Positions 4,362 to 30,968 of a stretch of 64,000 bases of DNA are shown here, piece by piece (position 1 is the stretch's first letter; every line of letters starts with the position of its first letter). Origin of the DNA: Rhodanobacter thiooxydans (lineage in GTDB: Bacteria > Pseudomonadota > Gammaproteobacteria > Xanthomonadales > Rhodanobacteraceae); the NCBI RefSeq assembly GCF_021545845.1, contig NZ_CP088923.1:3720001-3784000 (forward strand). The letters are read 5' to 3'. A program made the position numbers and the translations under genes. A model generated the notes under the pieces. That model saw nothing but the letters and a program-made list of their open reading frames with translations, made no database searches and was not told the DNA's origin.

Positions 4362-4418
4362 CCCGGGCCCGCCGGGCCTGTGCTTGACGCAACCCGGGAT
4401 GGCGGGCACGGTATCCGC

Positions 4419-11907: not shown

Positions 11908-13155
11908 TCACGGAAGCGCCCGGCCGAGGTCGCCCCGCGACTGCCGCGCCACCACGCTGGTGGCGGTCATGTCACCGGTGACGTTGCCCAGCGTGGCCAG
12001 CGCGTCGGGGATGGTGTCGACGGCCAGCATTAGGCCCAGCGGGGACAGCGGCAGGCCCATCGCCTGCGCCACCGGCAGATTGGTGGCGATGAAGGTGACC
12101 TGGCCCGGCAGGCCGACCGAACCCAGGCTGATCACCACCGCCAGCAGCGCACCGGCCAACAGCTGCGCGGTGCCGAGGTCGATGCCGTAGGCCCAGGCGA
12201 TGAACACCGCCGAGGTGACGTACTGCACCGGGCTGGTCAGGCGGAACAGGCTCACCGCCATCGGCAGCACCAGCGCAGCCACCTGCTGCGGGTAGCCGAG
12301 CCGGCGGTCGGCGCTTTCCAGCATCGCCGGCAGCGAGGCCAGCGAGGACTGCGTGCTGATCGCCACCACCTGCGCCGGCACCAGCGCCAGCGCGAAACGG
12401 CGCAGCTTCTCGCCGCCGAACGCCACCGCCAGCGGCAGCATCATCGCGGTGACCGACAGATACAGCAGGCACTCCACCAGCACGTACACGCCGAGCGCGC
12501 TGAGCATGCCCAGGCCCGAGCGGGCGCAGACCGAAAGAATCAGCGCGAACACGCCCAGCGGCGCGATCCACAGCACCCAGCGCACGATCACGATCATCGC
12601 GTCGGCGACCGCCTGGAAGAACTCCATCAGCAGCGCGCGCCGCTTTGCTTCGATCCGGGTCAGCGCGAAACCGAGGAACAGCGCGAACACCACCAGCGGC
12701 AGCATCGCGCTCTGCGCCGCGGCCATGATCGCGTTGTTCGGCACGATCGCCACCAGCGTGTCGATCCAGTTCGGCGCCGCCTGCACGGCCGCCGGCACGC
12801 TGGCATGGTCGAGCGCTGTGATCAGCGCCGGATTGTGCGGGAACAGCGAGAATACCAGCGGCGCGGCCAGCGCCGCGAACAGCGCGCCGCCGCTCAGCAC
12901 CACGATGAACACCACGATCGCGCGGCGCGCGATGCGGCCCGAGGCGGCCGCGTCGGTGGCGGTGTTGACGCCCACCACCACCAGCGCCAGCACCAGCGGC
13001 ACCACCGTCATCTGCAGCGCGTTCAGCCACAGCTTGCCGATCGGCTGCGCCACGTTCGCCACCTGCAGCGCCACGGTTTCGTTCCAGCCGGCCAGCAGTA
13101 AACCGATCACCGCGCCGGCGGCCAGCCCGATCAGCACCCGGGTAGTGGCACTCAC
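11908..13155 (-). CDS. Dicarboxylate/amino acid:cation symporter (DAACS/GltP family)
   Basis: 415 residues with the DAACS pattern: hydrophobic helices throughout, the serine-rich reentrant loop [13 protein letters not shown], and [27 protein letters not shown], which matches the substrate/cation-binding TM8 region. Imports dicarboxylates or acidic/neutral amino acids with Na+ or H+. Start GTG 13155 overlaps the stop of the upstream L,D-transpeptidase-like gene (GTGA). Because it follows an epimerase/peptidase cluster that should release Glu and Ala, it may retrieve those amino acids; that role is inference. Confidence 0.85.
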
Positions 13156-13913
13156 CGCGCAGCCTCCGCCAGCGCCGGCAGTTGCCACGATGCGCGCAGG
13201 CGTTCGTACTCACCCTGCGGCAGCAGCACGAACACCGGATGATCCTGCGGCTTCAGCCAGGCCAGCAGTCTCTGCATCAGCGCGGGCGCCATCGCGGTGC
13301 AGCCGGCGGTGGCGTCGGCCGGCGACTTCCACAGGTGCGCGAAAATGCAGCTGCCGCCCTGCGGCGCCGCCTGCGCGTTGTGCTCGATCACGAAGCCGAG
13401 CCGGTAGCGCTGGTCGCCGTTCGCGTGCAGGTCGCGCCGCATCGGTTCGCTGGAACTGTTCACCGCCTCCAGGCCGACCACGTCCGCATCGACGATGCGG
13501 TTGTACTGCGCCGCGCCACTGACATCCATGCACCAGTCGGTGGCGGTGAGCGCACGGTACGGCAGCGCGGTGGCCGCGTGGGCGGCGTAGCCGAACGCCT
13601 CGCCGATGCGGAACACGCCGGCCGGGCTGCGCTTGTCACCCTCACGTTTCACTGGGCCACCGGTTTGCGGCGCACTCAGGCCCAGGCCCCAGCCGGCGCC
13701 GTTCTTGCCGACGGTCACCGGCGCGGGCGCGACGACCTCCTGCCAGGCGTCACCGCTACGCTCGAAGGCGCGCAGCTCGCCGTGATCGACGTTCCAGTCG
13801 GCGGTGGTGACCACGATCATCTGGCGGGCGTTCTGCCATGGCGCGTTCGCGGCGCCGGCGTGCGCGGTGCCGGCAAACAGGATGGCAAAGCCGAGCAGCA
13901 GGGAAATACGCAT
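13152..13913 (-). CDS. Secreted L,D-transpeptidase/YkuD-like protein
   Basis: 253 residues with a signal peptide (MRISLLLGFAILFAGTAHA). The C-terminal half has a YkuD-like layout: SAPQTGGPVKREGDKRSPAGVF, then IFAHLWKSPADATAGCTAM, where the His and the Cys after TAG fit the catalytic His...Cys pair. Family members cross-link or trim peptidoglycan stem peptides at DAP. The motif is a loose match, so transpeptidase versus carboxypeptidase activity is open. Start ATG 13913 is chosen because upstream in-frame codons lie in repeat DNA. It sits in the murein-peptide cluster and overlaps the symporter gene. Confidence 0.72.
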   Translation of the reverse strand: MRISLLLGFAILFAGTAHAGAANAPWQNARQMIVVTTADWNVDHGELRAFERSGDAWQEVVAPAPVTVGKNGAGWGLGLSAPQTGGPVKREGDKRSPAGVFRIGEAFGYAAHAATALPYRALTATDWCMDVSGAAQYNRIVDADVVGLEAVNSSSEPMRRDLHANGDQRYRLGFVIEHNAQAAPQGGSCIFAHLWKSPADATAGCTAMAPALMQRLLAWLKPQDHPVFVLLPQGEYERLRASWQLPALAEAAR

Positions 13914-13940
13914 GGTTTGCGACGACCTCGCACGGTGGGA

Positions 13941-14043
13941 CCCCTCTCCCCTTGGGAGAGGGGCAGGGGTGAGGGTTCGGGCGGAGCGGAGCGTGCGGCC
14001 TTGCCGTACCCTCTCCCCAACCCCTCTCCCGGGGGGAGAGGGG
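13941..14043. repeat. Paired C/G-palindrome repeat, copy 1
   Basis: Two palindromes of CCCCTCTCCC-N3/4-GGGAGAGGGG type flank about 55 bases. The same arrangement and spacer recur at 28819-28923 in the same orientation. A REP/BIME-like element lying just upstream of the transpeptidase-like gene. Confidence 0.85.
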
Positions 14044-14082
14044 CTCAGGCGCCGAGGCATCGGGAACGCCTGAACGGCCAAA

Positions 14083-14940
14083 TCACGGCTCCAGCATCAG
14101 CTGGATGCGGTCAAGGTTGGCCAGCAGCTGCGCGTGGAGGTCGTCGTGGCCTTCGCACAACTGCACGAACACGCCGTCGAGCAGGTGCTGCAGCGCCGAC
14201 TGGTACAGCAGCGGCTGGATGTACGGCAGCTCATCGTGCGCCGATACCACCAGGCTGAGGTCGGCCAGCGCGCGCAGCGGGTTGGCGGTGTGCCGGGTCA
14301 CCGTGATCACCTGGCCGCGGCGCTCGCGGAAATAGCGGGCGATCTTGCACAGCGCCGGGTGGTTGCCGTGCTCGGAGAACACCAGCAGCACGTCGCCGGG
14401 ACCGGCGGCGGAGACGTTCGCGGTCATCCGCGCGGTGTCGAAATTGTGCACGGTGAGGATGCCCAGCAGCGACAGCCTCAGCGCGAAGCCGCGCGCATGG
14501 ATGTCGTCCTCGCCCAGCCCGATGATGAACACCTTGCCGGCGCGGCCGGCCTGCTCGATCGCGTCGGCCACGGCATGCAGGGTTCCCGGTGGGTTGATCA
14601 GCCGGGTCGCCTCCTCGGCTTCGGACTTGCGCCGCCACAGGTGGCCGGCGGATGCGCCGCCGCCTTCGCCGCCGCTCGCCTCCGCGACCTGCGGCGTGTC
14701 GCCGTTGTCGGCGCGGGCGATGGCCTCGCCGACCGAGTACTTCAGGTCCGGGTAACCCTTGAAGCCCAACTTCTGGGTGAATTTGACCACGCTGGACTGG
14801 CTGATCCCCAGCGCATTGGCCAGCTGCTGCGACGAGTAGTCGCGCAGCAGCTGCGCGTTCTCCAGGATGAAGTCGGCGATGCGCCGCTCCACTGCCGACA
14901 TCTGGTCGCGTTCCGAACGGATTTTGACCAGCGGCGACAT
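14083..14940 (-). CDS. RpiR/MurR-family transcriptional regulator
   Basis: 285 residues. The N-terminal HTH_6 domain is visible (MSAVERRIADFILEN, then SSQQLANALGISQSSVVKF and TQKLGFKGYPDLK). A SIS sugar-phosphate-binding domain lies from about 120 to 260 (KVFIIGLGEDDIHARGFALR, then VLLVFSEHGNHP). RpiR proteins sense sugar phosphates; MurR senses MurNAc-6-phosphate. Its start overlaps the epimerase stop by one base (TGATG). The position implies control of the murein-peptide genes, and a perfect palindrome at 18864-18883 is a plausible operator. The effector is not known. Confidence 0.88.
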   Translation of the reverse strand: MSPLVKIRSERDQMSAVERRIADFILENAQLLRDYSSQQLANALGISQSSVVKFTQKLGFKGYPDLKYSVGEAIARADNGDTPQVAEASGGEGGGASAGHLWRRKSEAEEATRLINPPGTLHAVADAIEQAGRAGKVFIIGLGEDDIHARGFALRLSLLGILTVHNFDTARMTANVSAAGPGDVLLVFSEHGNHPALCKIARYFRERRGQVITVTRHTANPLRALADLSLVVSAHDELPYIQPLLYQSALQHLLDGVFVQLCEGHDDLHAQLLANLDRIQLMLEP

Positions 14941-16037
14941 CAGGCTTCGATCCTCTCCAATCCGCGGATCTCGCGGATGCCCAGTCCGGGCGCGTCCGTC
15001 ACGGAGATCTCCGACTCGTTGAAGATTACCCCACCGTCGACCGGGTTGAACTGGCACAGCGAGGGGCCGTCCAGGTCGACCTTGGTGATCACGTTCGACT
15101 TCGCCACCGCCACGTGCACCGCCGCGGCCACGCTGATCGAGGTTTCCAGCATGCAGCCGATCATGCACTCGACGCCGTGCATGCCGGCGATGTCGGCGAT
15201 GCGCACCGCATTGGAGATGCCGCCGGTCTTCATCAGCTTGATGTTGATGATGTCGGCCGCGCGCAGGCGGATCAGTTCGATCACCTCCATCGGGCCGAAC
15301 ACGCTCTCGTCGGCCATCACCGGGGTGTGCACGCGCTCGGTGACGTAGCGCATGCCGGCCAGGTCGCGCGCCTTCACTGGCTGCTCGATCAGCTCCAGCT
15401 TGATGCCGGCGTCCTCCAGCGTCTGCAGCGCGTACACCGCCTGCTTCGCGGTCCAGCCCTGGTTCGCGTCCAGCCGCAGCAGCGCACGCCCTTCCACCGC
15501 GGCATAGATCGCCTTGACCCGCTCGATGTCGACGCCGATGTCCTTGCCCACCTTGATCTTCAACGATTCGAAACCGCGCTCCACCGCGGAGACCGAGTCG
15601 GCCACCATCTTGTCGATGTAGTCGACGCTGATGGTGATGTCGGTGGTGATCACCGGGTCGCCGCCGCCCAGCAGCTTGTACAGCGGCGCGCCGTAGAGCT
15701 GGCCCCACAGGTCGTACAGCGCGATCTCCACCGCCGCCTTGGCGCTGGTGTTCTTCTCCATCGAAGACTGGATCAGCTGGGTGAGGTGATTGAGGTTGGC
15801 GATGTCCTGGCCGATCAGCCGCGGCGAGATGTAGTGGCGGATCGCGTCGATGATCGAACCGTGGGTGTCGCCGGTGATCACCGCGGTGGCCGGCGCCTCG
15901 CCGTAGCCGACCTGGCCCGAGTCGGTGTGCACCATCACCACGATGTCCTCCACCGTGTTGACCGTGCGCAGCGCCGTCTTGAACGGGGTTTTCAGCGGCA
16001 CCCGCAGCATGCCGAACTGGATGTCTGTGATCTTCAT
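14940..16037 (-). CDS. ykfB: L-Ala-D/L-Glu dipeptide epimerase (enolase superfamily)
   Basis: 365 residues. Muconate-lactonizing subgroup of the enolase superfamily: Lys160 and Lys162 in SLKIKVG, metal ligands Asp190 (LRLDAN), Glu218 (IEQP) and Asp243 (ADES), and Lys267 in NIKLMKTGG, the second base. These match L-Ala-D/L-Glu epimerases, which convert the L-Ala-D-Glu released from murein into L-Ala-L-Glu for peptidases. Start ATG 16037 gives MKITDIQFGML; earlier ATGs lie in repeat DNA. Coupled to rpiR and 172 bases after the NlpC/P60 gene. Substrate assigned from context and motifs; the ykfB symbol is by function. Confidence 0.85.
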   Translation of the reverse strand: MKITDIQFGMLRVPLKTPFKTALRTVNTVEDIVVMVHTDSGQVGYGEAPATAVITGDTHGSIIDAIRHYISPRLIGQDIANLNHLTQLIQSSMEKNTSAKAAVEIALYDLWGQLYGAPLYKLLGGGDPVITTDITISVDYIDKMVADSVSAVERGFESLKIKVGKDIGVDIERVKAIYAAVEGRALLRLDANQGWTAKQAVYALQTLEDAGIKLELIEQPVKARDLAGMRYVTERVHTPVMADESVFGPMEVIELIRLRAADIINIKLMKTGGISNAVRIADIAGMHGVECMIGCMLETSISVAAAVHVAVAKSNVITKVDLDGPSLCQFNPVDGGVIFNESEISVTDAPGLGIREIRGLERIEA

Positions 16038-16077
16038 GGATTGGCTTGCTCTGATCCTGTGCGATGACATGTCACGA

Positions 16078-16184
16078 CGTGATTCCCGCGCAAGCGGTAG
16101 ATGCTTTTTCAACAGCGAAGCTGGGCATCCATCCTGCTCCGGACCGGGAAGGCAAAGTGGATTCCCGCTTGCGCGGGAATGACG
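16078..16184. repeat. Palindromic repeat with GATTCCCGC ends
   Basis: GATTCCCGCGCAAGCGG at the left and a hairpin ATTCCCGC-TTGC-GCGGGAAT at the right bound about 70 bases. The right hairpin resembles the dispersed element at 30036-30178 (TTCCGGCG...CGCCGGAA) but differs in sequence. It fills the NlpC-epimerase gap. Confidence 0.7.
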
Positions 16185-16209
16185 CCGCGAGAGAGGGGAT
16201 GGGTTTCCG

Positions 16210-17613
16210 TCATGGGCGGATGCGCACGATGCTGGTCATGCGCTCGACATAGCTCTGCTGGTCGTTGAACAGCAGCGGCAGCAGCGGCGTCACCGACACC
16301 GCGTTGAGCTTGACCCGCGCCTTGCTGCCGTCGGCCTTGCGGTAGCTCATGCCGGTGGTGTCGTGGATCACGTACGGCTGGCCGTGCAGGTGGCCGATCA
16401 CCATCATCACGTGAGCTGGGATGTAGACCAGGTCGCCCACCTCGAGCGCCTGCACGGCCGCGATGCGCGCCTCGCGGCTGTCCTTCGTGGTGAACGCGCG
16501 GTGCTCCAGCGCGGGGCTGATCGCCTGCCTGCTGGTATTGCGCGGCATCTCGACGCCCATGCTGCGGTACACATCGGAGACGAAGCCCGAGCAGTCGCGG
16601 CCGTCGTAGGCGTGGCCCCAGCCATAGCGCTCGCCGAGGAACTTGAACGCCTGGCGGATGATGTTGGCGCGGGTCAGCGGCAGGTAGTCGGCGGCGGTAT
16701 CGGTGTTCTTCTGCAGCAGCGCCGGGGTGAACGCCAGCGTGCCGTCAGCCTTGCGCAGCGGCAGCTCGAGCACGTGCGCGGTATACGGCGTCTGGCCGTT
16801 GACCGGCTGGTCCGGCGGCAGGTCGGTGACCAGCGGTATGCGCGCACCCATGTCCAGTTGCAGCTGCGATACCGCCGGCTGCTCGCGGGTAAACACGGTG
16901 TGCTCGGTGGCGCCGGTGATCACCCGGTATGGCGTCTTGTCGGCGTAGCCAAACACTTGCGCAGCACTACCTTCGGCCACGTTTTCCTTCCCGGTCCACG
17001 CGGCGTAGCGGGGGCTGACCACGAACAGCCACCGGCCGTCGGCGCTGGCGTGCACGATCGCCACCGGCGTGCCGGGGAATTCGGCGGTCTCCTGGAAACG
17101 GTCGATGTCGGTGTCGCCCTTCTCGCTGAATACGCGCAGCGCGGTGGGGAACGTGCGCAGCGCAGCGCGGCGCACCACCAGGCCGTAGCGTGTCGGCTGC
17201 TGTGCGGGGATCGCGCCGAGGGCGAGGTTGCCGACCATGGCGTCCAGCGTGGCGGCCGGCACCGGCTGGCCGTCGACGTCGAACAGCGGACGGTCCGGTC
17301 GCTCGGACAACGCCGTGATCCAGCCGGCGACCTGCTCGCGACTCAGCGTTTTCGGCAACGCGCGCAGGTCGTGCATCGACGGATCGACCTGCAGCAGCTT
17401 CGCGTTCTGCGCCTCGATCGCCGCGCGGTCGAGGATCACCCGGTCGGGCTCGGCCTGCAGACCGATCCAGAACGTGGGGGTGAGCTGCGCCTCGCCGACG
17501 CCTAGCACGCCGGACGGCGGCACGGTCAACGCATCGTTCGCCGCGCGCGCCTGCAGCGGTGCGCCGGCGAAGGCGAGCGCGAGTACGGTGGCGGCAAGCA
17601 GGGGAATTCGCAT
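16210..17613 (-). CDS. Exported NlpC/P60 peptidase, YkfC-like gamma-D-Glu-diamino acid endopeptidase
   Basis: 467 residues with a signal peptide ending near QARA. A central SH3b-like region (about 150-250) binds wall peptides in this family. The C-terminal NlpC/P60 domain has RYGWGHAYDGRDCSGFV with Cys341, His401 in PAHVMMVIG and a third polar His (HDTTG). YkfC-type enzymes cut gamma-D-Glu-DAP in L-Ala-gamma-D-Glu-DAP, giving the dipeptide that the adjacent epimerase uses. Being exported, it would act in the periplasm. 26 bases after the DUF819 gene. Confidence 0.85.
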   Translation of the reverse strand: MRIPLLAATVLALAFAGAPLQARAANDALTVPPSGVLGVGEAQLTPTFWIGLQAEPDRVILDRAAIEAQNAKLLQVDPSMHDLRALPKTLSREQVAGWITALSERPDRPLFDVDGQPVPAATLDAMVGNLALGAIPAQQPTRYGLVVRRAALRTFPTALRVFSEKGDTDIDRFQETAEFPGTPVAIVHASADGRWLFVVSPRYAAWTGKENVAEGSAAQVFGYADKTPYRVITGATEHTVFTREQPAVSQLQLDMGARIPLVTDLPPDQPVNGQTPYTAHVLELPLRKADGTLAFTPALLQKNTDTAADYLPLTRANIIRQAFKFLGERYGWGHAYDGRDCSGFVSDVYRSMGVEMPRNTSRQAISPALEHRAFTTKDSREARIAAVQALEVGDLVYIPAHVMMVIGHLHGQPYVIHDTTGMSYRKADGSKARVKLNAVSVTPLLPLLFNDQQSYVERMTSIVRIRP

Positions 17614-17639
17614 CGTCTTGGTCCTATGTTGAAACCGCG

Positions 17640-18797
17640 TCACGGGCCGGCCAGCGCCGACAACACCATCGCCACCACCAGCCCGAAGCCGGTACCCAGG
17701 ATGTAACCGAGCAGCGCCAGCAGGATGCCGACCGGCACCAGTGCGGCCGAATAGCTCGCCGCCAGGATCGGCGTGGCCGCCACCCCGCCAATATGCGCCA
17801 GCGAGGAGATCCCGCACAGGTACAGGTCGAAGCGGAACAGTTTGGCGAAGCCGACCAGCAGCACCGCGTGGATGGCGATGATGGTGACGCCACACAGCAG
17901 GTACAGCGGCGCCGCGGCGATGCCTTCGAAGTTGCTCTGCGAGGCCAGCACCGCTACCACGCTGATCAGCATCGCGCTGGAGATCGTGCTGGCGCCGGGG
18001 AACTCCGCCAGCGGCGTGTGCGCCGCCACCAGACCGAAGCCGGTAGCCAGCAGGATGGTCCAGGTGGTCGCGCTGACCATGCCGGATGCCGGCAGCCAGT
18101 CGGCCAGCCAGCCCGCCAGCGCCGCCGCCGCCAGCGCCATGCCCAGCCACAGCAGCACGCTGTCGTAGGTGGTCGGCGCCTTGGTCTTCGCCGGCGCCAG
18201 CGGGATGTCGCCGCTGGATACCGCCCGGGTCCAGCGGTTGAACGCCGGCGCCAGTCGCGCCACCGAGAACAGCACCACCACCCACATCGAGTAGCCGAGC
18301 GCATCGGTCAGCAGCGACATCGCCAGATAGGTATCGGACATGCCGATCGCCTGCTTCACCGCGATCATGTTCGCGCTGCCGCCAACCCAGCTGCCGGACA
18401 GCGCGGCCAGCGGCTGCCAGGCGTCGCCGGGCAGCCAGTGGCGGTAGAGCAGGTAGGTGGCGATGAAGGCCACGAACAGGCTGAGCGAGGTGCAGGCGAA
18501 CACGCCGAGCACGCGCGGTCCGAGCCGCCAGATCGCGCGCAGGTCGCAATTGATCATCAGCAGGAACAGCAGCGCCGGCACCAGGTGGGAGACCAGCATC
18601 GACTGCGCCGCCTTGATCTCCGCGTTGACCTGCCACAGCCCGGACACCGCCAGCGCGGTGACAAACAGATAGGTCAGCACGATCGGCGGCAGCACCGAAA
18701 ACACCTTCCAGCCGAAGCGGCGTTCGATCGCCGGAAACAGCCCGGCGATCAGCAGCATCAGCGCCAGGTAAGGCCAGACCGTATGGATCACTTGCAT
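17640..18797 (-). CDS. DUF819 family integral membrane protein (YjcL-like)
   Basis: 385 residues with ten or more hydrophobic helices and the DUF819 signature GSWVGGSANMIAVK, plus CGISSLAHIGGVAATPILAA. Function of DUF819 is unproven; its neighbours here (epimerase, NlpC peptidase) suggest uptake of murein-derived dipeptides or amino acids. The start is ATG 18797, but AGGGG abuts this codon, so the GTG two codons on (18791) has better spacing. First gene of the leftward arm, divergent from the transglutaminase gene. Confidence 0.82.
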   Translation of the reverse strand: MQVIHTVWPYLALMLLIAGLFPAIERRFGWKVFSVLPPIVLTYLFVTALAVSGLWQVNAEIKAAQSMLVSHLVPALLFLLMINCDLRAIWRLGPRVLGVFACTSLSLFVAFIATYLLYRHWLPGDAWQPLAALSGSWVGGSANMIAVKQAIGMSDTYLAMSLLTDALGYSMWVVVLFSVARLAPAFNRWTRAVSSGDIPLAPAKTKAPTTYDSVLLWLGMALAAAALAGWLADWLPASGMVSATTWTILLATGFGLVAAHTPLAEFPGASTISSAMLISVVAVLASQSNFEGIAAAPLYLLCGVTIIAIHAVLLVGFAKLFRFDLYLCGISSLAHIGGVAATPILAASYSAALVPVGILLALLGYILGTGFGLVVAMVLSALAGP

Positions 18798-18863
18798 CCC
18801 CTCGTGGATCGTTCGCGGGTATTCGCAGGCTGGCCGGCTTCCGCCATCAAGGAATAGTTGATT

Positions 18864-18883
18864 CTTCTTTCATATTAAAGAAG
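18864..18883. promoter_or_regulatory. Perfect palindrome in the divergent promoter, candidate RpiR operator
   Basis: CTTCTTT (18864-18870), CATATT, AAAGAAG (18877-18883). It lies in the only AT-rich stretch of the 160-base gap between the two arms of the peptidoglycan-peptide locus, 67 bases from the DUF819 start and 75 bases from the transglutaminase start. One site here could switch both arms. No copy was noticed elsewhere in the window. Confidence 0.55.
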
Positions 18884-18957
18884 CATAAATTATTGACCGG
18901 CATTTGCAAGCGTGTTACACAGCGGTTTCAGGGGATTCGTTGCGGGGACGTTTGTCG

Positions 18958-20484: not shown

Positions 20485-20542
20485 CCAACCAGCAGCTTTT
20501 CATGAACATGGCATCGACGGCGTCGATGGGGGAGATGGGGAC

Positions 20543-23539: not shown

Positions 23540-23557
23540 TCGGCCTCCCCCGGCCGT

Positions 23558-23587
23558 GGCCCGCGCAATTGGCGGGCCGCTTTTTTT
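23558..23587 (+). terminator. Rho-independent terminator after the TonB receptor
   Basis: GGCCCGC (23558-23564), loop, GCGGGCC (23572-23578), GC, then seven T. It separates the receptor from lysA, so the downstream genes must be read through or have their own promoter; none is obvious in the 35 bases left. Confidence 0.9.
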
Positions 23588-23622
23588 CCGGCGCCACCGC
23601 ACCAGCCACCGATAGCGAACCC

Positions 23623-24927
23623 ATGCCCACGCAGACGACGAACCGCCCGGCAGCGCAGGAAACCGCCCGGGAAACGGACGGTGCCCCCGGCATGTTCGAC
23701 GGCGTCGACCTGCGGCAACTGGCCGAACGCATCGCCACCCCCTTTCATGCCTACTCCGCCAGCGCGATCCGCCAGCGCATCGACGAACTCCAGGCCGCGC
23801 TGGCCGGCCTCGACGCCGCCATCTGCTTCGCGGTCAAGGCCAACCCGAACCTCGCCATCCTGCAATTGATGGCGAACGCCGGCGTCGGCGCCGACATCGT
23901 CTCGGTCGGCGAACTGCGCCGCGCGCTCAACGCCGGCATCCCGGCCGAGCGCATCGTGTTTTCCGGCGTCGGCAAGAGCGCCGACGAGATCGCCGGCGCG
24001 TTGAACGTCGGCATCATGCACTTCAACGTCGAATCGCTGGACGAGCTGCACACCCTGCAGCGCCTCGCGAAAGCGCAAGAGGTGACCGCGCGTGCCGCAA
24101 TGCGCATCAACCCCGACGTGGACGCGCAGACCCACGCGAGGATCTCCACCGGCAAATCGGAAAACAAGTTCGGCGTCAGCATCGACGAGGCACGCCGCTG
24201 GTTCGCCGGCCGCAAGGCGCTGACCCACGTGCAGCTCGACGGCCTGCACGTGCACATTGGCTCGCAGATCCTCAGCCTCGACCCGTTCCGCCTCGCGCTG
24301 CAGCGGGTCGCCGCGTTCTGGCGCGAACTCGAACAGGCCGGCCATCCGGTCAACAGCATCGACGTGGGCGGCGGTCTCGGCGTGTGCTACCGCGCCGGCG
24401 TGGACCGGCCACTCGCTGCCACCGATTACGTCGGCGTGATCCGCGCCGCGCTGGCCGGCTTCCGCGGCCGCCTGCTGCTGGAGCCGGGCCGCTGGCTGGT
24501 GGCCGAGGCTGGCGTGCTGCTGACCCGCGTGCTGCGCATCAAGCAAGGCGCCGAGCGGCGCTTCCTGGTGCTGGACGCGGCGATGAACGATCTGCAGCGG
24601 CCCAGCCTGTACGACGCCTGGCACGACATCGTGCCGGTCGCGGACGAACCGCGCCCGCCGGCTACCTACGACATCGTCGGCCCGGTCTGCGAAACCGGCG
24701 ATACTTTCGCTCGGGCGCGCGAGCTGCCCGAGTGCTCGGCGGGCGACCTCTTGCTGATCAGGGCCACCGGCGCGTACGGTGCGTCGATGGCGTCCAGCTA
24801 CAACTCGCGGACGCTGGCGGCCGAGGTCCTGCTCGACCAGGGCCGCTATGCCGTGGTGCGCCGTCGCCAGCACTTCGAGGAAATGATCGCCGGCGAGCAG
24901 CCGGCGCGGAACTGGGAAACCGCATGA
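23623..24927 (+). CDS. lysA: Diaminopimelate decarboxylase (alanine-racemase-fold PLP enzyme)
   Basis: 434 residues. Decarboxylates meso-DAP to L-lysine. PLP Lys72 in CFAVKANPN; also GADIVSVGELRRAL, SGVGKS, HVHIGSQ, GGGLG, EPGRWLV, GPVCETGDTFARAR and GAYGASMASSYNSR, all LysA landmarks. The open frame runs upstream through the receptor gene in another frame, so ATG 23623 is chosen; ATG 23692 is an alternative. Its stop overlaps the dipeptidase start (ATGA). In this setting it may convert DAP freed from murein peptides, but it could equally be the biosynthetic enzyme. Confidence 0.92.
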   Translation: MPTQTTNRPAAQETARETDGAPGMFDGVDLRQLAERIATPFHAYSASAIRQRIDELQAALAGLDAAICFAVKANPNLAILQLMANAGVGADIVSVGELRRALNAGIPAERIVFSGVGKSADEIAGALNVGIMHFNVESLDELHTLQRLAKAQEVTARAAMRINPDVDAQTHARISTGKSENKFGVSIDEARRWFAGRKALTHVQLDGLHVHIGSQILSLDPFRLALQRVAAFWRELEQAGHPVNSIDVGGGLGVCYRAGVDRPLAATDYVGVIRAALAGFRGRLLLEPGRWLVAEAGVLLTRVLRIKQGAERRFLVLDAAMNDLQRPSLYDAWHDIVPVADEPRPPATYDIVGPVCETGDTFARARELPECSAGDLLLIRATGAYGASMASSYNSRTLAAEVLLDQGRYAVVRRRQHFEEMIAGEQPARNWETA

Positions 24928-26135
24928 ACCTGACCGTCCGCCTCGCCCTTCTCGCCGCCCTGGCCTGGCCCGCCGCTTCGCCGGCGCAGGCCGCGCAGGA
25001 CCCACCGGTCACCATCGACACCCACGTCGACATTCCGTTCAACTACATGGCCGAGCCGCGCTTCGACGTCGGCAAGGACACCCGCCTGCTGGTCGACCTC
25101 GGCAAGATGGAGCGCGGCGGCCTCAACGCGGTGTTCTTCGTGGTGTGGGTGCCGCAGCACGCACTCGACGCCGCCGGCTACGCCAAGGCGGTGCAGCAGG
25201 CCAGCCAGAAGTACGACGGCATCGGCCGCATGCTGATGATGTATCCCGACCGCATCCGCCTGGCCACCACACCGGAGCAGCTCGTCGCCAACCACAAGGC
25301 CGGCCTGCTCTCGGCCACCATCGAGATCGAGAACGCCTACTCGCTCGGCCACGACCTCCGCCGCCTCGACGCCGCGTTCGATCGTGGCGCCCGTTCGGTC
25401 GGCCTGGTCCATGTCGGCAACAACGACCTGTGCACCAGCTCGCTGCCCGACACCGAACACAGCGAGCCGGCGATGAACAGCGCCGGCGACCAGGGCATGA
25501 GCGCGTTCGGCCGCGCCGTGGTGAAGCGCGCCAACCAGCTCGGCATGCTGGTCGACATCTCGCACGCCTCGGACAAGTGCGTGCGCGATGCGCTCCAGGC
25601 ATCCGCCGCCCCGATCATCGCCACCCACTCCGGTGCCCGCGCCGTGCTCGACCACCCGCGCAACCTGCCCGACGAGCTGCTGCGCGCGATCGCCGCGAAG
25701 GGCGGCGTGGTGCAGGCAGTGGCGTACAAGGAATTCCTGAAGCACGACCCCGGCCGCGAGGCTGCCGAGAAGAAATTGCAGGAGGCCGTGGCCAAACAGG
25801 CCGGCGAGAAGGCATACGACAGCGACAACGACGACTACCGGCCCGAGATGGAAGCAGGCATGGCCGAGATCCAGAAGACCTACCCGCTGGCCACGCTGGA
25901 CGACTACGTGAAGCAGATCCGGCACATGGTGAAAGTGGCTGGCATCGACCACGTCGGCCTCGCCTCTGACTTCGACGGCGGTGGTGGCATCACCAGCTGG
26001 AAGGACGCCAGCGAAACCCGCAACGTCACCGCTGCGCTGCGCAAGGCCGGCTTCAGCGACGCCGACATCGCCAAACTGTGGGGCGGCAACCTGCTGCGCG
26101 TGTGGGGCGAGGTCGAGCGGCATGCGCAACATTGA
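24924..26135 (+). CDS. Exported M19-family membrane (renal) dipeptidase
   Basis: 403 residues. Signal peptide to PAQA. Binuclear zinc site pieces: His34 and Asp36 in IDTHVD, the bridging Glu in IEIENAYS, and His residues in DISHAS and THSGAR; the C-terminus has GIDHVGLASDFDGGGG. These enzymes split dipeptides, including ones with a D-residue at the C-terminus. It would finish epimerised or VanX-type dipeptides from the wall. Start ATG overlaps the lysA stop. Confidence 0.92.
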   Translation: MNLTVRLALLAALAWPAASPAQAAQDPPVTIDTHVDIPFNYMAEPRFDVGKDTRLLVDLGKMERGGLNAVFFVVWVPQHALDAAGYAKAVQQASQKYDGIGRMLMMYPDRIRLATTPEQLVANHKAGLLSATIEIENAYSLGHDLRRLDAAFDRGARSVGLVHVGNNDLCTSSLPDTEHSEPAMNSAGDQGMSAFGRAVVKRANQLGMLVDISHASDKCVRDALQASAAPIIATHSGARAVLDHPRNLPDELLRAIAAKGGVVQAVAYKEFLKHDPGREAAEKKLQEAVAKQAGEKAYDSDNDDYRPEMEAGMAEIQKTYPLATLDDYVKQIRHMVKVAGIDHVGLASDFDGGGGITSWKDASETRNVTAALRKAGFSDADIAKLWGGNLLRVWGEVERHAQH

Positions 26136-27960
26136 CGCCGCGCACTTTCTGCTCCCTCCCCTGCATTGCAGGGGAGGGTTGGGATGGGGTGCTCTCCCGC
26201 ACGCCCGGGCCACCCCTTCCCTGCCTCCCCCTGCAAGCAGGGGGAGGAGTCAGAAGCGCAGCGCCGACGCTCTGCTCCCTCCCCTGCATTGCAGGGGAGG
26301 GTTGGGGTGGGGTGCTCTCCCGCACGCCCGAGCCACCCCCTCCCAACCTCCCCCTGCAGGCAGGGGGAGGAGCCAGAAGCATTCGCTCCCTCCCCTGCAT
26401 TGCAGGGGAGGGCTGGGGTGGGGTGCTCTTGCCCTTCTGCTCCTACTCGCACCGTTTGGCACCAACGCCCGATCCGCCAACCGCATCTATGACCCCATCG
26501 TCGACGCCGTCGTCGCCCGCTATCATCTGCCCGGCATCGCCGTCGGCGTGATCGAGAACGGGCAGGTCGTCTATATGCGCACCGCCGGCGAGACCGTCGC
26601 CGGCTCTGGCCAGCCGGTCACCCCGCGCACGCTGTTCAAGATCGCCTCCAACAGCAAGGCGATGACCACCGCCCTGCTCGGCCGGCTGGTCGACCAGGGC
26701 AAGCTGCGCTGGGACGATCCGGTGACGAAGTACCTGCCGCAGTTCCGCATGCACGACCCGTGGGTCACCACGAACATGCGCGTGGCCGACCTGCTCACCC
26801 ATTCCAGCGGCCTGCCCGAGGGCGGCGGCGACCTGATGCTGTGGCCGGAGCCGAATGCGTTCACCCGCGCCGACATCATCCACGGCCTGGCCTTCATCAA
26901 GCCCAGCTACAGCTTCCGTGCGCAGTACCAGTACGACAACCTGCTCTACGTGGTGGCCGGCGAAGTGGCCGCCGCCGCAGGCGGTGCGCCGTACGAGACG
27001 CTGATGCGCCGCGAGGTGTTCGCGCCGCTGGGGCTGGACCGCTGCCAGGTCGGCGCATGGAACCGCGACGCGGTCGGCGACGTGGCCGCGCCGCACCGTC
27101 GCGACGGCAACCGCAATGTGGCGATGCCCGAGGCCACGGCAATCCCCGCGATCACCTCCGCGGCGGCCGGCGGCATCCGCTGCGGCCTCACCGACATGCT
27201 GAGCTGGGCGCGCAACTGGCTGACACCCACCCACGCGCAGCTGCAATGGCTGTCGCCGGTGCAGCGCGAAGTGCTGCAGGCGCCGCACATGCTGATCCCG
27301 ATTTCCGAACAGCGCCGCGCCTGGGATAACACGCACGTGATGGCCTACGGCTACGGCTGGCGCATGGCCGACGTCGACGGCCAGTGGAGCGTGTGGCACA
27401 CCGGCACGCTGAACGGCATGTACTCGATGCTGGCCCTGCTGCCCGACCGCGACGACGGCTTCGTGTTCATGATCAACGGCGACGCGGACGAAGCGCGCAC
27501 CGTGCTTGGCGAAGTATTGATGAAGCACTTCACCGCGCCCGGCGACGATCGCGGCGTGGACTGGTACGCCGATGCGCTGGCGCAGCGGGCGAAGCAGCGG
27601 GCGCCGTCGTCGTCCGCGCCGGATACCTCGGCGCAGCGGCCAGCCTCGCCGGCCGAACTGGCGCACTGGAGCGGGCAGTATCGCGACGCGTGGTTCGGCG
27701 ACGTCACGCTATGCCCGCGCGAGGGGAAGATGCATTTCGCCGCCGCGAAGTCGCCGACACTGGCCGGCACGGTGATGCGCCTGGGCGATCGCTACCTGGT
27801 GCACTGGGACGATTCGGCCAACCTCGACGCCTGGCTGGATTTTCGCGCCGTCAGCAACGACCAGCCGATCGCCCTGCGCATGGCCAAGCTCGACCCGCTG
27901 GGCGACTTCAGCTCCGATTATGAAGACCTCGACTTCCGCCGCGTAGGACGCTGCCCATGA
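26122..27960 (+). CDS. Serine beta-lactamase-fold hydrolase (class C/DD-peptidase-like) with repeat-expanded N-terminus
   Basis: 612 residues from ATG 26122, which overlaps the dipeptidase end. The catalytic domain is clear: Ser176-x-x-Lys179 in IASNSK, YDN in QYQYDNLLY and HTG in VWHTGTLNG. A DUF3471-like C-terminal domain (about 525-612) follows. Residues 11-103 come from three in-frame copies of a palindromic repeat (26152-26430) lying between MRNIDAAHFL and a hydrophobic stretch LALLLLLAPFGTNA that looks like the rest of a signal peptide. The true start may instead be a TTG or GTG in the repeats. Substrate likely D-amino-acyl or muropeptide; the next start overlaps (ATGA). Confidence 0.82.
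   Translation: MRNIDAAHFLLPPLHCRGGLGWGALPHARATPSLPPPASRGRSQKRSADALLPPLHCRGGLGWGALPHARATPSQPPPAGRGRSQKHSLPPLHCRGGLGWGALALLLLLAPFGTNARSANRIYDPIVDAVVARYHLPGIAVGVIENGQVVYMRTAGETVAGSGQPVTPRTLFKIASNSKAMTTALLGRLVDQGKLRWDDPVTKYLPQFRMHDPWVTTNMRVADLLTHSSGLPEGGGDLMLWPEPNAFTRADIIHGLAFIKPSYSFRAQYQYDNLLYVVAGEVAAAAGGAPYETLMRREVFAPLGLDRCQVGAWNRDAVGDVAAPHRRDGNRNVAMPEATAIPAITSAAAGGIRCGLTDMLSWARNWLTPTHAQLQWLSPVQREVLQAPHMLIPISEQRRAWDNTHVMAYGYGWRMADVDGQWSVWHTGTLNGMYSMLALLPDRDDGFVFMINGDADEARTVLGEVLMKHFTAPGDDRGVDWYADALAQRAKQRAPSSSAPDTSAQRPASPAELAHWSGQYRDAWFGDVTLCPREGKMHFAAAKSPTLAGTVMRLGDRYLVHWDDSANLDAWLDFRAVSNDQPIALRMAKLDPLGDFSSDYEDLDFRRVGRCP
26152..26430. repeat. Three tandem copies of a C/G-rich palindromic repeat inside a reading frame
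   Basis: CTCCCTCCCCTGCATTGCAG with its palindromic partner begins at 26152, 26275 and 26386. Each unit carries a second palindrome (CCTCCCCCTGC-GCAGGGGGAGG type) and GGGGTGCTCTCCCGCACGCC. Unit offsets are 123 and 111 bases, both multiples of three, so the reading frame stays open through all of them. Confidence 0.9.
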
Positions 27961-28799
27961 TCACCCACTCACTAGTGACGCCCCGTAGGAGCCCGCTCGC
28001 GGGCGATGCTTTTGCTCTCACGAATCCCGAATCCCATATCCCAAATCCCGACCCCAAGAGCATCGCCCGCAAGCGGGCTCCTACGACAGCTTGGTGTCTG
28101 TTCGTGCTCGCCTGGCTCGTCGCCTCCGGTGGCATCGCCCGCGCGGAGCAGCCACCCACCCTGTCGCCCGTCAGGACGGCCGCTGCGGCGAACCTCGTCG
28201 ACATCCGCATGCTGGTGCCGGACATCGCCGAAGACATCAAGTACGCTGGCCACAACAACTTCGTGGGTGCGCCGGTCGATGGCTACCTGGCACCGAAGTG
28301 CCTGCTGCTGCGCCCGGTCGCCGAAGCGCTGGCGCGGGTCGAGCGCGAGCTGCGCACGCAGCAGCTGCGCCTGAAGATCTGGGACTGCTATCGCCCGGCC
28401 CGCGCCGTGGCGCATTTCGTGCGCTGGGCGCACGACCTCAACGACCAGCGTACCAAGCCGCAGCACTATCCCACGCTGGACAAGTCGAAACTGCTCGGCG
28501 ATTACATCGCACCGGTCTCCGGCCACAGCCGCGGCGCCACCGCCGACCTCACCCTGCAGCGCTGCGCCGCCGACGGCACGCACTGCACGCCGCTGGACAT
28601 GGGCACCGATTTCGACTTCTTCGACGTGCGCGCGCACACCGATGCGCCCGGCATCACTGCCGCGCAGCATGCGAACCGTCTGCTGCTGCGCGATGCAATG
28701 GAGCGCGAGGGTTTCCGCAACTATGCGCTGGAGTGGTGGCATTACACGCTAACGCCGGAACCCACGCCGCACACGCTGTACGACGTGCCGGTGCAATGA
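27957..28799 (+). CDS. ddpX: D-Ala-D-Ala dipeptidase, VanX/DdpX family (M15D)
   Basis: 280 residues from ATG 27957, overlapping the previous stop. Zinc site SGHSRGATADLTL (SxHxxGxAxD) and catalytic EWWHY; YRPARAVAHFVRWA is also typical. VanX/DdpX enzymes split D-Ala-D-Ala, letting cells feed on it or removing it during glycopeptide resistance; no vanHA partners are present, so a catabolic role fits. Residues about 10-43 are encoded by a REP element (27985-28084) inserted in frame between the start and the hydrophobic signal segment WCLFVLAWLVASGGIARA. Confidence 0.9.
   Translation: MITHSLVTPRRSPLAGDAFALTNPESHIPNPDPKSIARKRAPTTAWCLFVLAWLVASGGIARAEQPPTLSPVRTAAAANLVDIRMLVPDIAEDIKYAGHNNFVGAPVDGYLAPKCLLLRPVAEALARVERELRTQQLRLKIWDCYRPARAVAHFVRWAHDLNDQRTKPQHYPTLDKSKLLGDYIAPVSGHSRGATADLTLQRCAADGTHCTPLDMGTDFDFFDVRAHTDAPGITAAQHANRLLLRDAMEREGFRNYALEWWHYTLTPEPTPHTLYDVPVQ
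27985..28084. repeat. GTAGGAGCCCGC REP pair, copy 1 (within ddpX)
   Basis: GTAGGAGCCCGCTCGCGGGC at the left and GCCCGCAAGCGGGCTCCTAC at the right, in inverted orientation around about 60 bases. Other copies: 43443-43534, 47233-47341, 52757-52842. Read through in frame by ddpX. Confidence 0.92.
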
Positions 28800-28818
28800 C
28801 GCCGTACCCATCGAAACT

Positions 28819-28923
28819 CCCCTCTCCCCGTGGGAGAGGGGTCGGGGGAGAGGGTCCGGGCGGAGCCGAGCACCGCGGCGATCCCGCACCCTCACCCCAA
28901 CCCCTCTCCCGACGGGAGAGGGG
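28819..28923. repeat. Paired C/G-palindrome repeat, copy 2
   Basis: Same organisation and spacer (GAGGGTCCGGGCGGAGC...) as 13941-14043. It lies between ddpX and the next hydrolase gene. Confidence 0.85.
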
Positions 28924-28950
28924 CTCAAACCAAAGGCACGGAGCCTTGCC

Positions 28951-30006
28951 ATGCGTCTCGCCACGATCTTCGTCTCGATGCTGTTCTGCGCCGGCAGCGC
29001 TGGCGCATCGACCGCCGATGCCATCCGCCACGCCGATCAGTTGATGCAGAAGTACGCCGGCGACGTGCCCGGCGCCTCGCTGCTGGTGCTCAAGGATGGC
29101 AAGCCGATCGTGCGCCGCGGCTACGGCCTGGCCAATCTCGAAGACCGCGAGCGCGCCACGCCGGCCACCAACTACCGGCTCGCCTCGGTGAGCAAGCAGT
29201 TCACCGCCGCGGCGATCCTGCTGCTGGTCGAGGACGGCCACCTCCACCTGGACGACCCGGTGCAGCGCTGGCTGCCCACGCTGCCGCAGACGACGGCCGC
29301 GGTCACGCTGCGCCAGCTGCTCGACCACACCGGCGGCCTGGTCGACTACGAGGACCTGATCCCGCCCGGCACCACCGCCCAGGTCAGCGACGACGACGTG
29401 CTGCGCCTGCTCTCCGCCACGCCGAGGACCTACTTCGCGCCGGGCAGTGCCTACCGCTACAGCAACTCCGGCTACGTGCTGCTCGGCCTGGTGGTGGAAC
29501 GCGCCTCCGGCATGAGCCTGCCGCTGTACCTCAAGCAGCGCATCTTCCGGCCGCTGCACATGGACCACACCCTGCTCTACGAGCACGGCAAGGGGCCGGA
29601 AGTGGCGGACCGCGCCTACGGCTACAGCGAGGAGCACGGCCACTGGACGCGCACCGACCAGAGCATCACCAGCGCCACCCGCGGCGACGGCGGCATCTAC
29701 TCCTCGATCGACGACCTGGCCAAGTGGGACGCCGCCCTGTACGACGACCGCCTGCTCAGCGCCGCCTCGCGGCGGCTGGCCTTCAGCCCGCACGTGAAGG
29801 TCACCGGCGAACCGTACCAGGCCAGCTACGGCTACGGCTGGCGCATCACCGGCGACACACTGTGGCACTCCGGCGAAAGCATCGGCTTCCGCAACGTGAT
29901 CGTGCGCTGGCCGCAGCAGCGCCTCACGGTGATCCTGCTCAGCAACCGCAACGACCCGGAGCCTTACCGCACCGCACTGGCGATCGCCGAGCCCTATCTG
30001 CATTGA
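28951..30006 (+). CDS. Exported serine beta-lactamase-family hydrolase
   Basis: 351 residues; signal peptide MRLATIFVSMLFCAGSAGAS. Penicillin-binding fold motifs: Ser79-x-x-Lys82 in RLASVSK, YSN in YRYSNSGY and HSGE in place of KTG. No DUF3471 tail, so it differs from the other hydrolase of the locus. DD-carboxypeptidase, D-aminopeptidase or esterase activity are all possible. Fourth hydrolase gene in a row in the murein-peptide arm. Confidence 0.85.
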   Translation: MRLATIFVSMLFCAGSAGASTADAIRHADQLMQKYAGDVPGASLLVLKDGKPIVRRGYGLANLEDRERATPATNYRLASVSKQFTAAAILLLVEDGHLHLDDPVQRWLPTLPQTTAAVTLRQLLDHTGGLVDYEDLIPPGTTAQVSDDDVLRLLSATPRTYFAPGSAYRYSNSGYVLLGLVVERASGMSLPLYLKQRIFRPLHMDHTLLYEHGKGPEVADRAYGYSEEHGHWTRTDQSITSATRGDGGIYSSIDDLAKWDAALYDDRLLSAASRRLAFSPHVKVTGEPYQASYGYGWRITGDTLWHSGESIGFRNVIVRWPQQRLTVILLSNRNDPEPYRTALAIAEPYLH

Positions 30007-30035
30007 CCGCTGCCATCACTTTCGCCCACCTTCAC

Positions 30036-30178
30036 CGTCATTCCAGCGAAAGCCGGAGACGCATTTCAACAGTCGTAGGCTGGTCATCCAGTGATATATG
30101 CGTGCGAAGCACACGAAATGGATTTTGAGTACTTCGCACGAGTCACCCGACTGGATTCCGGCGTTCGCCGGAATGACG
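30036..30178. repeat. Inverted repeat with CGTCATTCC ends
   Basis: CGTCATTCCAGCGAAAGCCGG at the left end and CCGGCGTTCGCCGGAATGACG at the right form imperfect inverted ends around about 100 bases. It resembles small non-autonomous dispersed elements of xanthomonads and fills the gap before the amidase gene. Confidence 0.75.
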
Positions 30179-30197
30179 AGCCATCAAGCCCAACGCC

Positions 30198-30968
30198 ATG
30201 TGCCCGACACTCCCTGCATTCCGCCTTCTGCACATCGTTGGCCTGCTGATCCCGCTCGCCCTGCTCGCCGCCTGCGCCCCGCTGCCGCCGCGCAACCCGC
30301 TGGCGACCTGGGTGCCATCGCCGAACCACGACATCCGTCGGCCGGTGCTGATCGTGCTGCACTACACACAGCAGCAGTCGGTGCAGCAGAGCCTGGACAC
30401 CCTGCGCTCGAGCAACAGCATGGGCCCGGTCAGCGCGCATTACCTGATCGGCGCCGACGGCCACATCTACCAGCTGGTGCCCGACCAGTGGCGCGCCTGG
30501 CAGGCCGGTCCGGGCCGCTGGGGCACCATCACCGACCTCAACTCCGCCTCGATCGGCATCGAGCTGGACAACGACGGTGCCACGCCGTTCGCCCAGCCGC
30601 AGATCGACGGCCTGCTGCGCCTGCTCGCCGACCTCACCACGCGGCTGCGCATCCCGCCCACCCAGATCATCGGTCATGAGGACCTCGCCCCCGGCCGCAA
30701 GGACGACCCCGGCCCGCTGTTCCCGTGGCAGCAGCTCGCCGCCGCCGGCTACGGCCGCTGGCCACAGGGCGAACTGGTCGAGCCGCCCGCCGGCTTCGAC
30801 CCGTGGATGGCGCTGGGCCTGGTCGGCTACCCGCTGGACGACCGCCCCGCTGCGGTGCGCGCGTTCCACCACCACTTCCGCGGCATGCAGGGCGACACGC
30901 TGGACGACGAAGACCTGCGCATCCTGTACAACCTGGCGCAGCGGATCGTGGGCGGCAGCGGGAACTGA
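30198..30968 (+). CDS. Lipoprotein N-acetylmuramoyl-L-alanine amidase (AmiD/AmpD-like, Amidase_2)
   Basis: 256 residues. Lipobox LLAAC with Cys26, so probably anchored in the outer membrane facing the periplasm. The Amidase_2 zinc site is His55 in VLHYTQ, then GHEDLAPGRKDDPGPLF with the second His and the Asp, and the substrate-shaping SAHYLIGADGHIYQLV. It cuts the MurNAc-L-Ala bond and releases stem peptides. A putative peptidoglycan-binding tail (AVRAFHHHFRG) ends it. Last gene of the rightward arm; supplies peptides for the other enzymes. Confidence 0.9.
   Translation: MCPTLPAFRLLHIVGLLIPLALLAACAPLPPRNPLATWVPSPNHDIRRPVLIVLHYTQQQSVQQSLDTLRSSNSMGPVSAHYLIGADGHIYQLVPDQWRAWQAGPGRWGTITDLNSASIGIELDNDGATPFAQPQIDGLLRLLADLTTRLRIPPTQIIGHEDLAPGRKDDPGPLFPWQQLAAAGYGRWPQGELVEPPAGFDPWMALGLVGYPLDDRPAAVRAFHHHFRGMQGDTLDDEDLRILYNLAQRIVGGSGN

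Follow-up and report, generated by a model that had tools for sequence, protein, structure and literature searches.

Peptidoglycan recycling in E. coli imports muropeptides by AmpG and processes them in the cytosol, with an L-Ala-D/L-Glu epimerase at a late step, and ykf-type operons include an S66 LD-carboxypeptidase. Here we describe a locus of Rhodanobacter thiooxydans, at positions 11908-30968 of a 64,000-nt stretch (the window) of contig NZ_CP088923.1 (assembly GCF_021545845.1; 4.2 Mb genome on two contigs). It is probably a single regulon, controlled by an RpiR-type protein, by which stem peptides of peptidoglycan would be broken down outside the cytoplasm and the products imported: a variant of the ykf-type sets. 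With ykfABCD of Bacillus it shares an epimerase and an SH3b-NlpC/P60 γ-D-Glu-diamino-acid endopeptidase (YkfC: PMC2954226). Unlike ykfABCD, most of its enzymes are predicted to be exported, an outer-membrane receptor, an amidase, a VanX-type enzyme, the decarboxylase LysA and RpiR are added, a YkuD fold stands in place of S66, a family absent from the 14 genes of the locus, and no ABC transporter is found among these genes. The ycjG-mpaA and AmpG/Mpl recycling of E. coli has the L-Ala-D/L-Glu epimerase in common with the locus, Mpl being encoded separately here. Like the polysaccharide utilization loci of Bacteroidetes, it brings together a TonB receptor, exported hydrolases and a local regulator; unlike them, its 14 genes match no profile of a SusD-like protein or glycoside hydrolase, and its content points to a peptide substrate. 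The pairing of epimerase and SH3b-NlpC/P60 is thus a known ykf theme, and it is the export, TonB receptor, amidase, VanX-type enzyme, LysA and single conserved site beside RpiR that differ. Searches of the open-licence literature, covering titles and the opening lines of abstracts, brought up no description of such a locus.

Profile searches resolve the locus into two divergent arms. The left arm, on the minus strand, comprises from the centre outwards a DUF819 inner-membrane transporter (17640-18797; PF05684, 253.6 bits for a cut-off of 27); an exported NlpC/P60 endopeptidase with an SH3b domain (16210-17625, start uncertain; SH3_6 and NLPC_P60, PF12913 and PF00877); an L-Ala-D/L-Glu-type dipeptide epimerase (14940-16067; MR_MLE N- and C-terminal domains), cytosolic by prediction, in which the Met matching the start of 1jpm is residue 11; an RpiR/MurR-type regulator (14083-14943; HTH_6 and SIS); a secreted YkuD-fold protein, a predicted L,D-carboxypeptidase (13152-13913; PF03734); and a GltP/DctA-like symporter of the SDF family (11908-13188; PF00375, 272.2 bits; 148.6 bits with the GltP model, below its cut-off of 638). 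The right arm, on the plus strand, opens with an exported transglutaminase-fold cysteine hydrolase (18958-20484; Transglut_core), placed at the ATG at 18958, the TTG at 18904 of the open reading frame falling within the promoter. Then come, in order, a TonB-dependent outer-membrane receptor (20543-23539; CarboxypepD_reg, Plug and TonB barrel); a stand-alone diaminopimelate (DAP) decarboxylase, LysA, cytosolic by prediction (23644-24927; Orn/DAP/Arg decarboxylase); an M19 dipeptidase with a signal-like start in its translation (24924-26135; PF01244, 303 bits; solved relatives 3b40 and 2rag); exported serine hydrolase 1 of the beta-lactamase fold (26398-27960, start uncertain; PF00144); a VanX-type D-Ala-D-Ala dipeptidase with an exported N-terminus (27957-28799; Peptidase_M15, PF01427); exported serine hydrolase 2, of the same fold and family (28951-30006); and an AmpDh2-like N-acetylmuramoyl-L-alanine amidase with a lipoprotein-type start, as read by eye (30198-30968; Amidase_2, PF01510). 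A preliminary description of this DNA, made from the sequence alone, had assigned families at these coordinates, and all were confirmed by profile; its gene list held except that the YkuD gene had been left out.

The enzymes are of peptidoglycan type, with active-site residues conserved in relatives; some near-identical loci are among the relatives counted below, and the figures should not be read as independent events. The best solved relative of the epimerase is the B. subtilis L-Ala-D/L-Glu epimerase (1jpm/1tkk, 355.8 bits). Nine columns, chosen for the catalytic, metal-binding and dipeptide-binding (DXD motif) residues of the B. subtilis enzyme, with K271 in the place of K268, are invariant in 83/83 relatives, and the K268 column holds Lys in 84/84, the window's own copy counted. 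Some epimerase matches contain an in-frame TGA, considered as a possible defect. In the flagged case that was read, locus L070, there is no defect: the TGA terminates the NlpC frame upstream, and the same holds for the short frames of L027 and L044.

The NlpC/P60 protein is closest to 3m1u, a γ-D-Glu-diamino-acid endopeptidase, among solved structures. In the window it keeps the catalytic triad of YkfC together with the residues of the γ-D-Glu S1 site (Tyr226, Trp228, Asp237 and Ser239). Across relatives, in YkfC numbering and with its two histidines placed via the 3m1u alignment, Tyr226, Trp228, Asp237, Cys238, Arg255 and His291 are found in 84/84, His303 in 82/84 and Ser239 in 78/84, with Thr in the other 6. 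LysA scores 465.7 bits with TIGR01048 (lysA), above the cut-off of 297.9. The genome encodes elsewhere a bifunctional aspartokinase/DAP decarboxylase, AspK-LysA (1220 bits, cut-off 802), as well as an arginine decarboxylase; with a separate biosynthetic enzyme present, the LysA of the locus is an additional copy. VanX itself is the closest solved relative of the VanX-type protein (1r44, 153.3 bits), and five residues of the VanX active site are kept in 57/57 relatives. The nearest solved relative of the amidase is AmpDh2 (4bpa, 125.9 bits). Both serine hydrolases retain their SxxK motif, in 59/59 relatives for the first and 25/25 for the second.

A search of solved structures by sequence gave nothing usable for the YkuD protein or the transglutaminase. 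The predicted structure of the former, a YkuD fold with a catalytic Cys, is nearest to Pgp2 and Csd6, both L,D-carboxypeptidases, which makes it the likely L,D-carboxypeptidase step of the locus as judged from the model. At 253 residues it is shorter than Csd6, Pgp2 and Bd1075 (268-316 residues), with which it shares 17-20% identity. That it stands in for an absent S66 enzyme is unsupported here, an S66 gene being present elsewhere in the genome. S66 was found in 3 of the 24 genomes of group f2 in the sample, and an argument of replacement could apply to genomes without S66 only. The predicted model of the transglutaminase is middling (pLDDT, the predicted local distance difference test, of 71.2), and its core match alone was used.

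A simple test for a hydrophobic stretch at the N-terminus, applied across relatives to 11 proteins, divides the set into two compartments. Exported N-termini occur in NlpC (73/84), the VanX-type enzyme (49/57), transglutaminase (54/64), YkuD (60/70), TonB receptor (46/60), serine hydrolases 1 (47/59) and 2 (18/25), amidase (6/6) and M19 (25/41). The epimerase (0/83) and LysA (0/37) are the only two that never have one. Most likely, then, the γ-D-Glu-DAP bond would be cut outside the cytoplasm and the epimerase would act inside; with NlpC exported and the epimerase cytosolic, an importer of L-Ala-D-Glu is needed.

These predicted locations bear on the reading suggested by the family names, namely that the VanX-type dipeptidase and the beta-lactamase-fold proteins form a resistance locus guarding against glycopeptides or beta-lactams. 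Resistance VanX acts in the cytosol, at odds with the export signal counted above for the VanX-type enzyme. Its score lies below the resistance-VanX cut-off; the class C beta-lactamase models among the 25 top-scoring families (out of 47 and 48) likewise stay below theirs, and the epimerase, LysA and receptor have no role in resistance. We regard this explanation as very improbable.

The two arms are separated by a divergent region of 160 bp. An alignment of 65 loci reveals in it a GAATA...ATTC palindrome, another AT-rich box that begins 30-31 bases beyond the first one, and a TTGACC-N17-TACACA pattern pointing to the transglutaminase gene. In the window, the paired box GAATA-N25/26-VVATAWWTTATTGA lies at 18852-18896 (plus strand) and is the putative operator of both arms; the rightward promoter-like pattern, likewise conserved, lies at 18893-18921 (plus strand), with its -35 element overlapping the second box. 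Box and promoter pattern occur once in each of the 65/65 loci that have RpiR, transglutaminase and epimerase. In a survey of 100 loci (one duplicate pair), the paired box was found in 65/66 loci with RpiR and in 0/34 without it, 18 of those 34 having the epimerase; the single RpiR locus lacking the box, L094, lacks the transglutaminase too.

Over 151 whole genomes of the order, 29 sites were found, at most one per genome. The epimerase is no more than 4 kb away from 27 of these, the other two (G113 and G114) lying elsewhere, and the reversed pattern gave 3 matches. The box at 18852-18896 is the sole site in the window's genome. A prediction written ahead also held: both epimerase genomes without the box (2/2) lacked RpiR and transglutaminase, and genomes with it carried transglutaminase in 14/14 and RpiR in 12/14 cases (the other two being cut by a contig end), a result weakened by the fact that 7 of the 14 loci had already been seen under public names and that G141 is of the same genus as the earlier-seen G101. 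The folding of the site is not unusual (z -1.42), and Rfam at its gathering threshold yields no match in the window. Altogether, the pattern supports co-regulation of the two arms, and the RpiR protein may be what binds the paired box. The preliminary description had named a lack of co-regulation as evidence that would count against it; at the level of sequence, the single-copy box between the arms favours the opposite.

We compared gene order in two sets of relatives. Searching named genomes with DUF819 as the seed yielded 61 loci, which come from Rhodanobacter, Frateuria, Dyella, Luteibacter, Pinirhizobacter, Dokdonella, Lysobacter, Steroidobacter, Peristeroidobacter and others; genes were counted in the 55 with flanks of about 10 kb. 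Of these 55 loci, 54 have NlpC, 52 the epimerase, 49 YkuD, 48 RpiR, 48 (the same ones) the transglutaminase, 47 the TonB receptor and 46 serine hydrolase 1. SDF and VanX follow (41 each), then M19 (37) and LysA (32), with serine hydrolase 2 (24) and amidase (4) limited by the flanks. The arms are divergent in 48/48 loci with the transglutaminase. A second sample, free of DUF819 bias, was seeded with the epimerase: an orthologue with 60% identity or more occurs in 44/151 genomes of the order, giving 43 neighbourhoods after exclusion of G132, where a contig end truncates the gene. Some genomes are common to both samples, eight locus pairs having identical intergenic sequence. In the second one, the epimerase lies near SH3b-NlpC/P60 in 42/43 cases and the transglutaminase is present in 27/43; of these 27 loci, 26 carry the TonB receptor, 25 RpiR (the other two being truncated by a contig end), 24 VanX, 17 SDF, 14 DUF819, 13 M19 and 12 LysA, with 20-kb stretches limiting some of the counts. 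Box and promoter pattern occur in 27/27 transglutaminase loci and 0/16 others. The comparison across Rhodanobacteraceae that the preliminary description had proposed thus shows a conserved divergent unit, found as well in Lysobacter, Steroidobacter and Peristeroidobacter.

The same comparison bears on an alternative in which the locus would act in the periplasm on peptides from the cell's own turnover, as another form of recycling or remodelling, with the TonB receptor serving some other substrate. The remaining 16 epimerase loci hold reduced sets of various types, such as one with VanX divergent from NlpC-epimerase-YkuD, and G054 has the epimerase alone. Such sets without the transglutaminase arm retain the NlpC-epimerase pair, often with YkuD and either VanX or amidase, as this alternative would have it, and the closest matches of the YkuD fold, Pgp2 and Csd6, are cell-shape proteins. 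On the other side, reuse of the tripeptide is already provided for, Mpl scoring above its cut-off in 147/151 genomes of the order, the window's own included, and the receptor lies within the regulated arm in 47/48 named and 26/27 epimerase-seeded transglutaminase loci. We hold an origin in own turnover to be unlikely, though the most probable of the alternatives; that the peptidoglycan would come from outside the cell is argued mainly from the receptor. That the locus replaces canonical recycling was also considered, and rejected given the spread of Mpl. With Mpl and a separate biosynthetic DAP decarboxylase present, the locus adds to normal recycling.

Transporters differ between relatives: besides DUF819 and SDF, we find an amino-acid permease (6 loci) and, in a variant named f8, two Gate-domain proteins, one member each of the permease and Gate clusters having been profiled. 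The two inner-membrane transporters noted in the preliminary description are both present in the window; as a constant set they do not stand. DUF819 is the best candidate for the dipeptide importer of the locus. In the mini-loci L038, L044 and L165, it is the sole one of the two transporter families beside NlpC-epimerase-YkuD. DUF819 belongs to the CPA/AT clan, together with a glutamate symporter and an Asp:Ala exchanger (PMC8396727), and in GltS, of that clan, single changes can confer uptake of D-glutamate (PMC12502697). In N. meningitidis, one study found an M15 peptidase gene followed by a DUF819 gene in 75/128 genomes (PMC12671195). That DUF819 is a general cell-wall transporter was rejected for the family as a whole: at least two peptide families lie near just 6/49 other DUF819 genes (L095 excluded from the count), one of the six, L096, by weak matches, and the number around Mpl is 0/20. 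A phylum-wide scan returned DUF819 in 9/200 cases, too sparse for use.

A narrower association of DUF819, with DgcN-like genes, stands up better: elsewhere in the order, 6/49 DgcN-like genes, from 6 genomes and 4 genera, have a DUF819 gene no more than 12 kb away, where about 0.3 would be expected (0.28 from 138 DUF819 rows). Of the six, G108 alone has a DgcN-like gene above the family cut-off. DgcN-DgcA is a route of D-glutamate use (PMC10845958). It has a DUF819 neighbour in common with the locus, and differs in that both the DgcN-linked DUF819 members and the epimerase are distinct from those of the locus. At L088:8883-12146, a DgcN over its cut-off, an epimerase and DUF819 are adjacent. 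In L088, L095, L125, L126 and L141 alike, DUF819 lies near DgcN-like genes, mostly with an epimerase-like gene, and may be a gene for D-glutamate uptake there.

This neighbourhood of some DUF819 genes elsewhere would suit a general regulon for peptides with D-residues, a system of D-amino-acid nutrition for which peptidoglycan is one source among others, and the M19 enzyme, the two serine hydrolases, SDF and the FAD (flavin adenine dinucleotide) oxidoreductases met beside relatives of the locus are broad-acting by family. Amidase_2, NlpC/P60, the VanX-type enzyme and the DAP decarboxylase, in turn, jointly indicate peptidoglycan, and leave such a general role improbable.

Direct support for a stem-peptide regulon comes from gene content, from conservation of both the divergent layout and the active sites, from the compartments predicted and from the single shared site per genome; we infer the substrates, the direction of flux, binding by RpiR, the cargo of the receptor, the substrate of DUF819 and the use of outside peptidoglycan. 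The TonB receptor would admit muropeptides or peptides, and the lipoprotein amidase would release the stem peptide from N-acetylmuramic acid. The YkuD-fold protein, the VanX-type enzyme and the two serine hydrolases may then remove or split the D-Ala end, while NlpC/P60 would cleave γ-D-Glu-DAP. In this lineage, DUF819 would bring in L-Ala-D-Glu, to be converted by the cytosolic epimerase to L-Ala-L-Glu; imported DAP could become lysine via the second LysA, and M19 and SDF might handle leftover D-containing dipeptides and glutamate-like products. A narrower claim, that this is an undescribed kind of regulon, equipped with a TonB receptor and a single-site RpiR switch, in which DUF819 (of no Pfam-assigned function and a clan relative of GltS) is a symporter of L-Ala-D-Glu or D-Glu, we advance tentatively, as a possible but rather doubtful whole.

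Several observations weigh against the proposed regulon. The epimerase stays below the NCBIfam equivalog cut-offs, with 252.4 bits of 500 for NF041118 and 113.3 of 343 for PRK15129, and the VanX-type protein below that of NF033115 (192.5 of 320). At the position of YkfC Asp256, NlpC has Asn in the window and in 78/84 relatives, and Asp in 6/84. This Asp has been linked to a free N-terminal L-Ala (PMC2954226); with Asn in its place, the protein is not a strict member of the YkfC subfamily. LysA, M19, VanX, SDF and DUF819 vary among relatives, and DUF819 is missing from 13/27 of the full, transglutaminase-bearing loci. The TonB receptor, SDF and transglutaminase belong to families that are not specific to peptidoglycan. 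Annotation of the locus shows neither a cytosolic L-Ala-L-Glu peptidase nor an evident carrier of DAP. The window's genome encodes Mpl and an S66 enzyme elsewhere, so that canonical recycling exists in it. RpiR and the transglutaminase arm nearly always co-occur with the box, which does not single out RpiR as its binder, and the FAD oxidoreductase of related loci reaches no NCBIfam cut-off. The scavenging system had at first been said to look complete: its peptidoglycan-type enzymes are borne out, its completeness is not, given LysA in 32/55 and M19 in 37/55 loci and the peptidase and carrier just mentioned.

Gene clusters that neighbour the related loci agree with a stem-peptide regulon: a DAO-family FAD oxidoreductase (17 loci), an S66 LD-carboxypeptidase (6) and an alanine racemase (6), with one member of each profiled. 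The oxidoreductase (PF01266; L057:16657-17799, for example) lies beyond SDF or YkuD in relatives and was not seen in the window; by family, it could oxidise the released D-amino acids. In the f8 variant (L075-L078 and L089-L091), amidase, NlpC and epimerase occur together; an S66 LD-carboxypeptidase and Gate-domain proteins join them in 6/7 loci and the alanine racemase cluster in 5/7. In 6/7 of them, a weak partial match to a TonB receptor (27-30% over about 300 residues) stands beside the amidase.

Other loci depart further from the window. L063, a metagenome locus of Phycisphaerales, has NlpC, epimerase and DUF819, then SDF and YkuD in a single frame of 700 residues (L063:11085-13187), either a fusion or an effect of metagenome assembly; its frame 3663-4712 matched no family and is distinct from the frame that clusters with alanine racemase. 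At L064:9908, in a Thermomonas metagenome-assembled genome, an amidase is divergent from DUF819 and the promoter half of the site is present, with no match for epimerase, NlpC or RpiR. G130, of the same genus as the window, gave neither an epimerase match at E <= 1e-20 nor a DUF819 match, and apparently lacks the locus. In the Steroidobacter-group loci L055 and L062, the epimerase is 84% identical to that of the window and most other genes 50-64%, a sign of strong constraint or of transfer. As to the surroundings of the window's own locus, the left flank holds trpG and trpC, found by profile, and trpD, read by eye, and the right flank CusA/CusB, found by profile and convergent with the locus. 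Within it, the gaps 26140-26400, 13913-14081 and 28799-28951 show repeated GC-rich stretches in their translations, which resemble repeated intergenic elements inside operons.

If the regulon is as we propose, peptidoglycan would serve Rhodanobacter, Lysobacter and their relatives as a polymeric nutrient, and a single regulon would bring together its receptor, hydrolases, importer and switch. Functions open to testing would follow for DUF819, for a subfamily of the YkuD fold and for a transglutaminase-fold hydrolase, as would a regulator acting at one site, with a product of the cell wall as its possible ligand.

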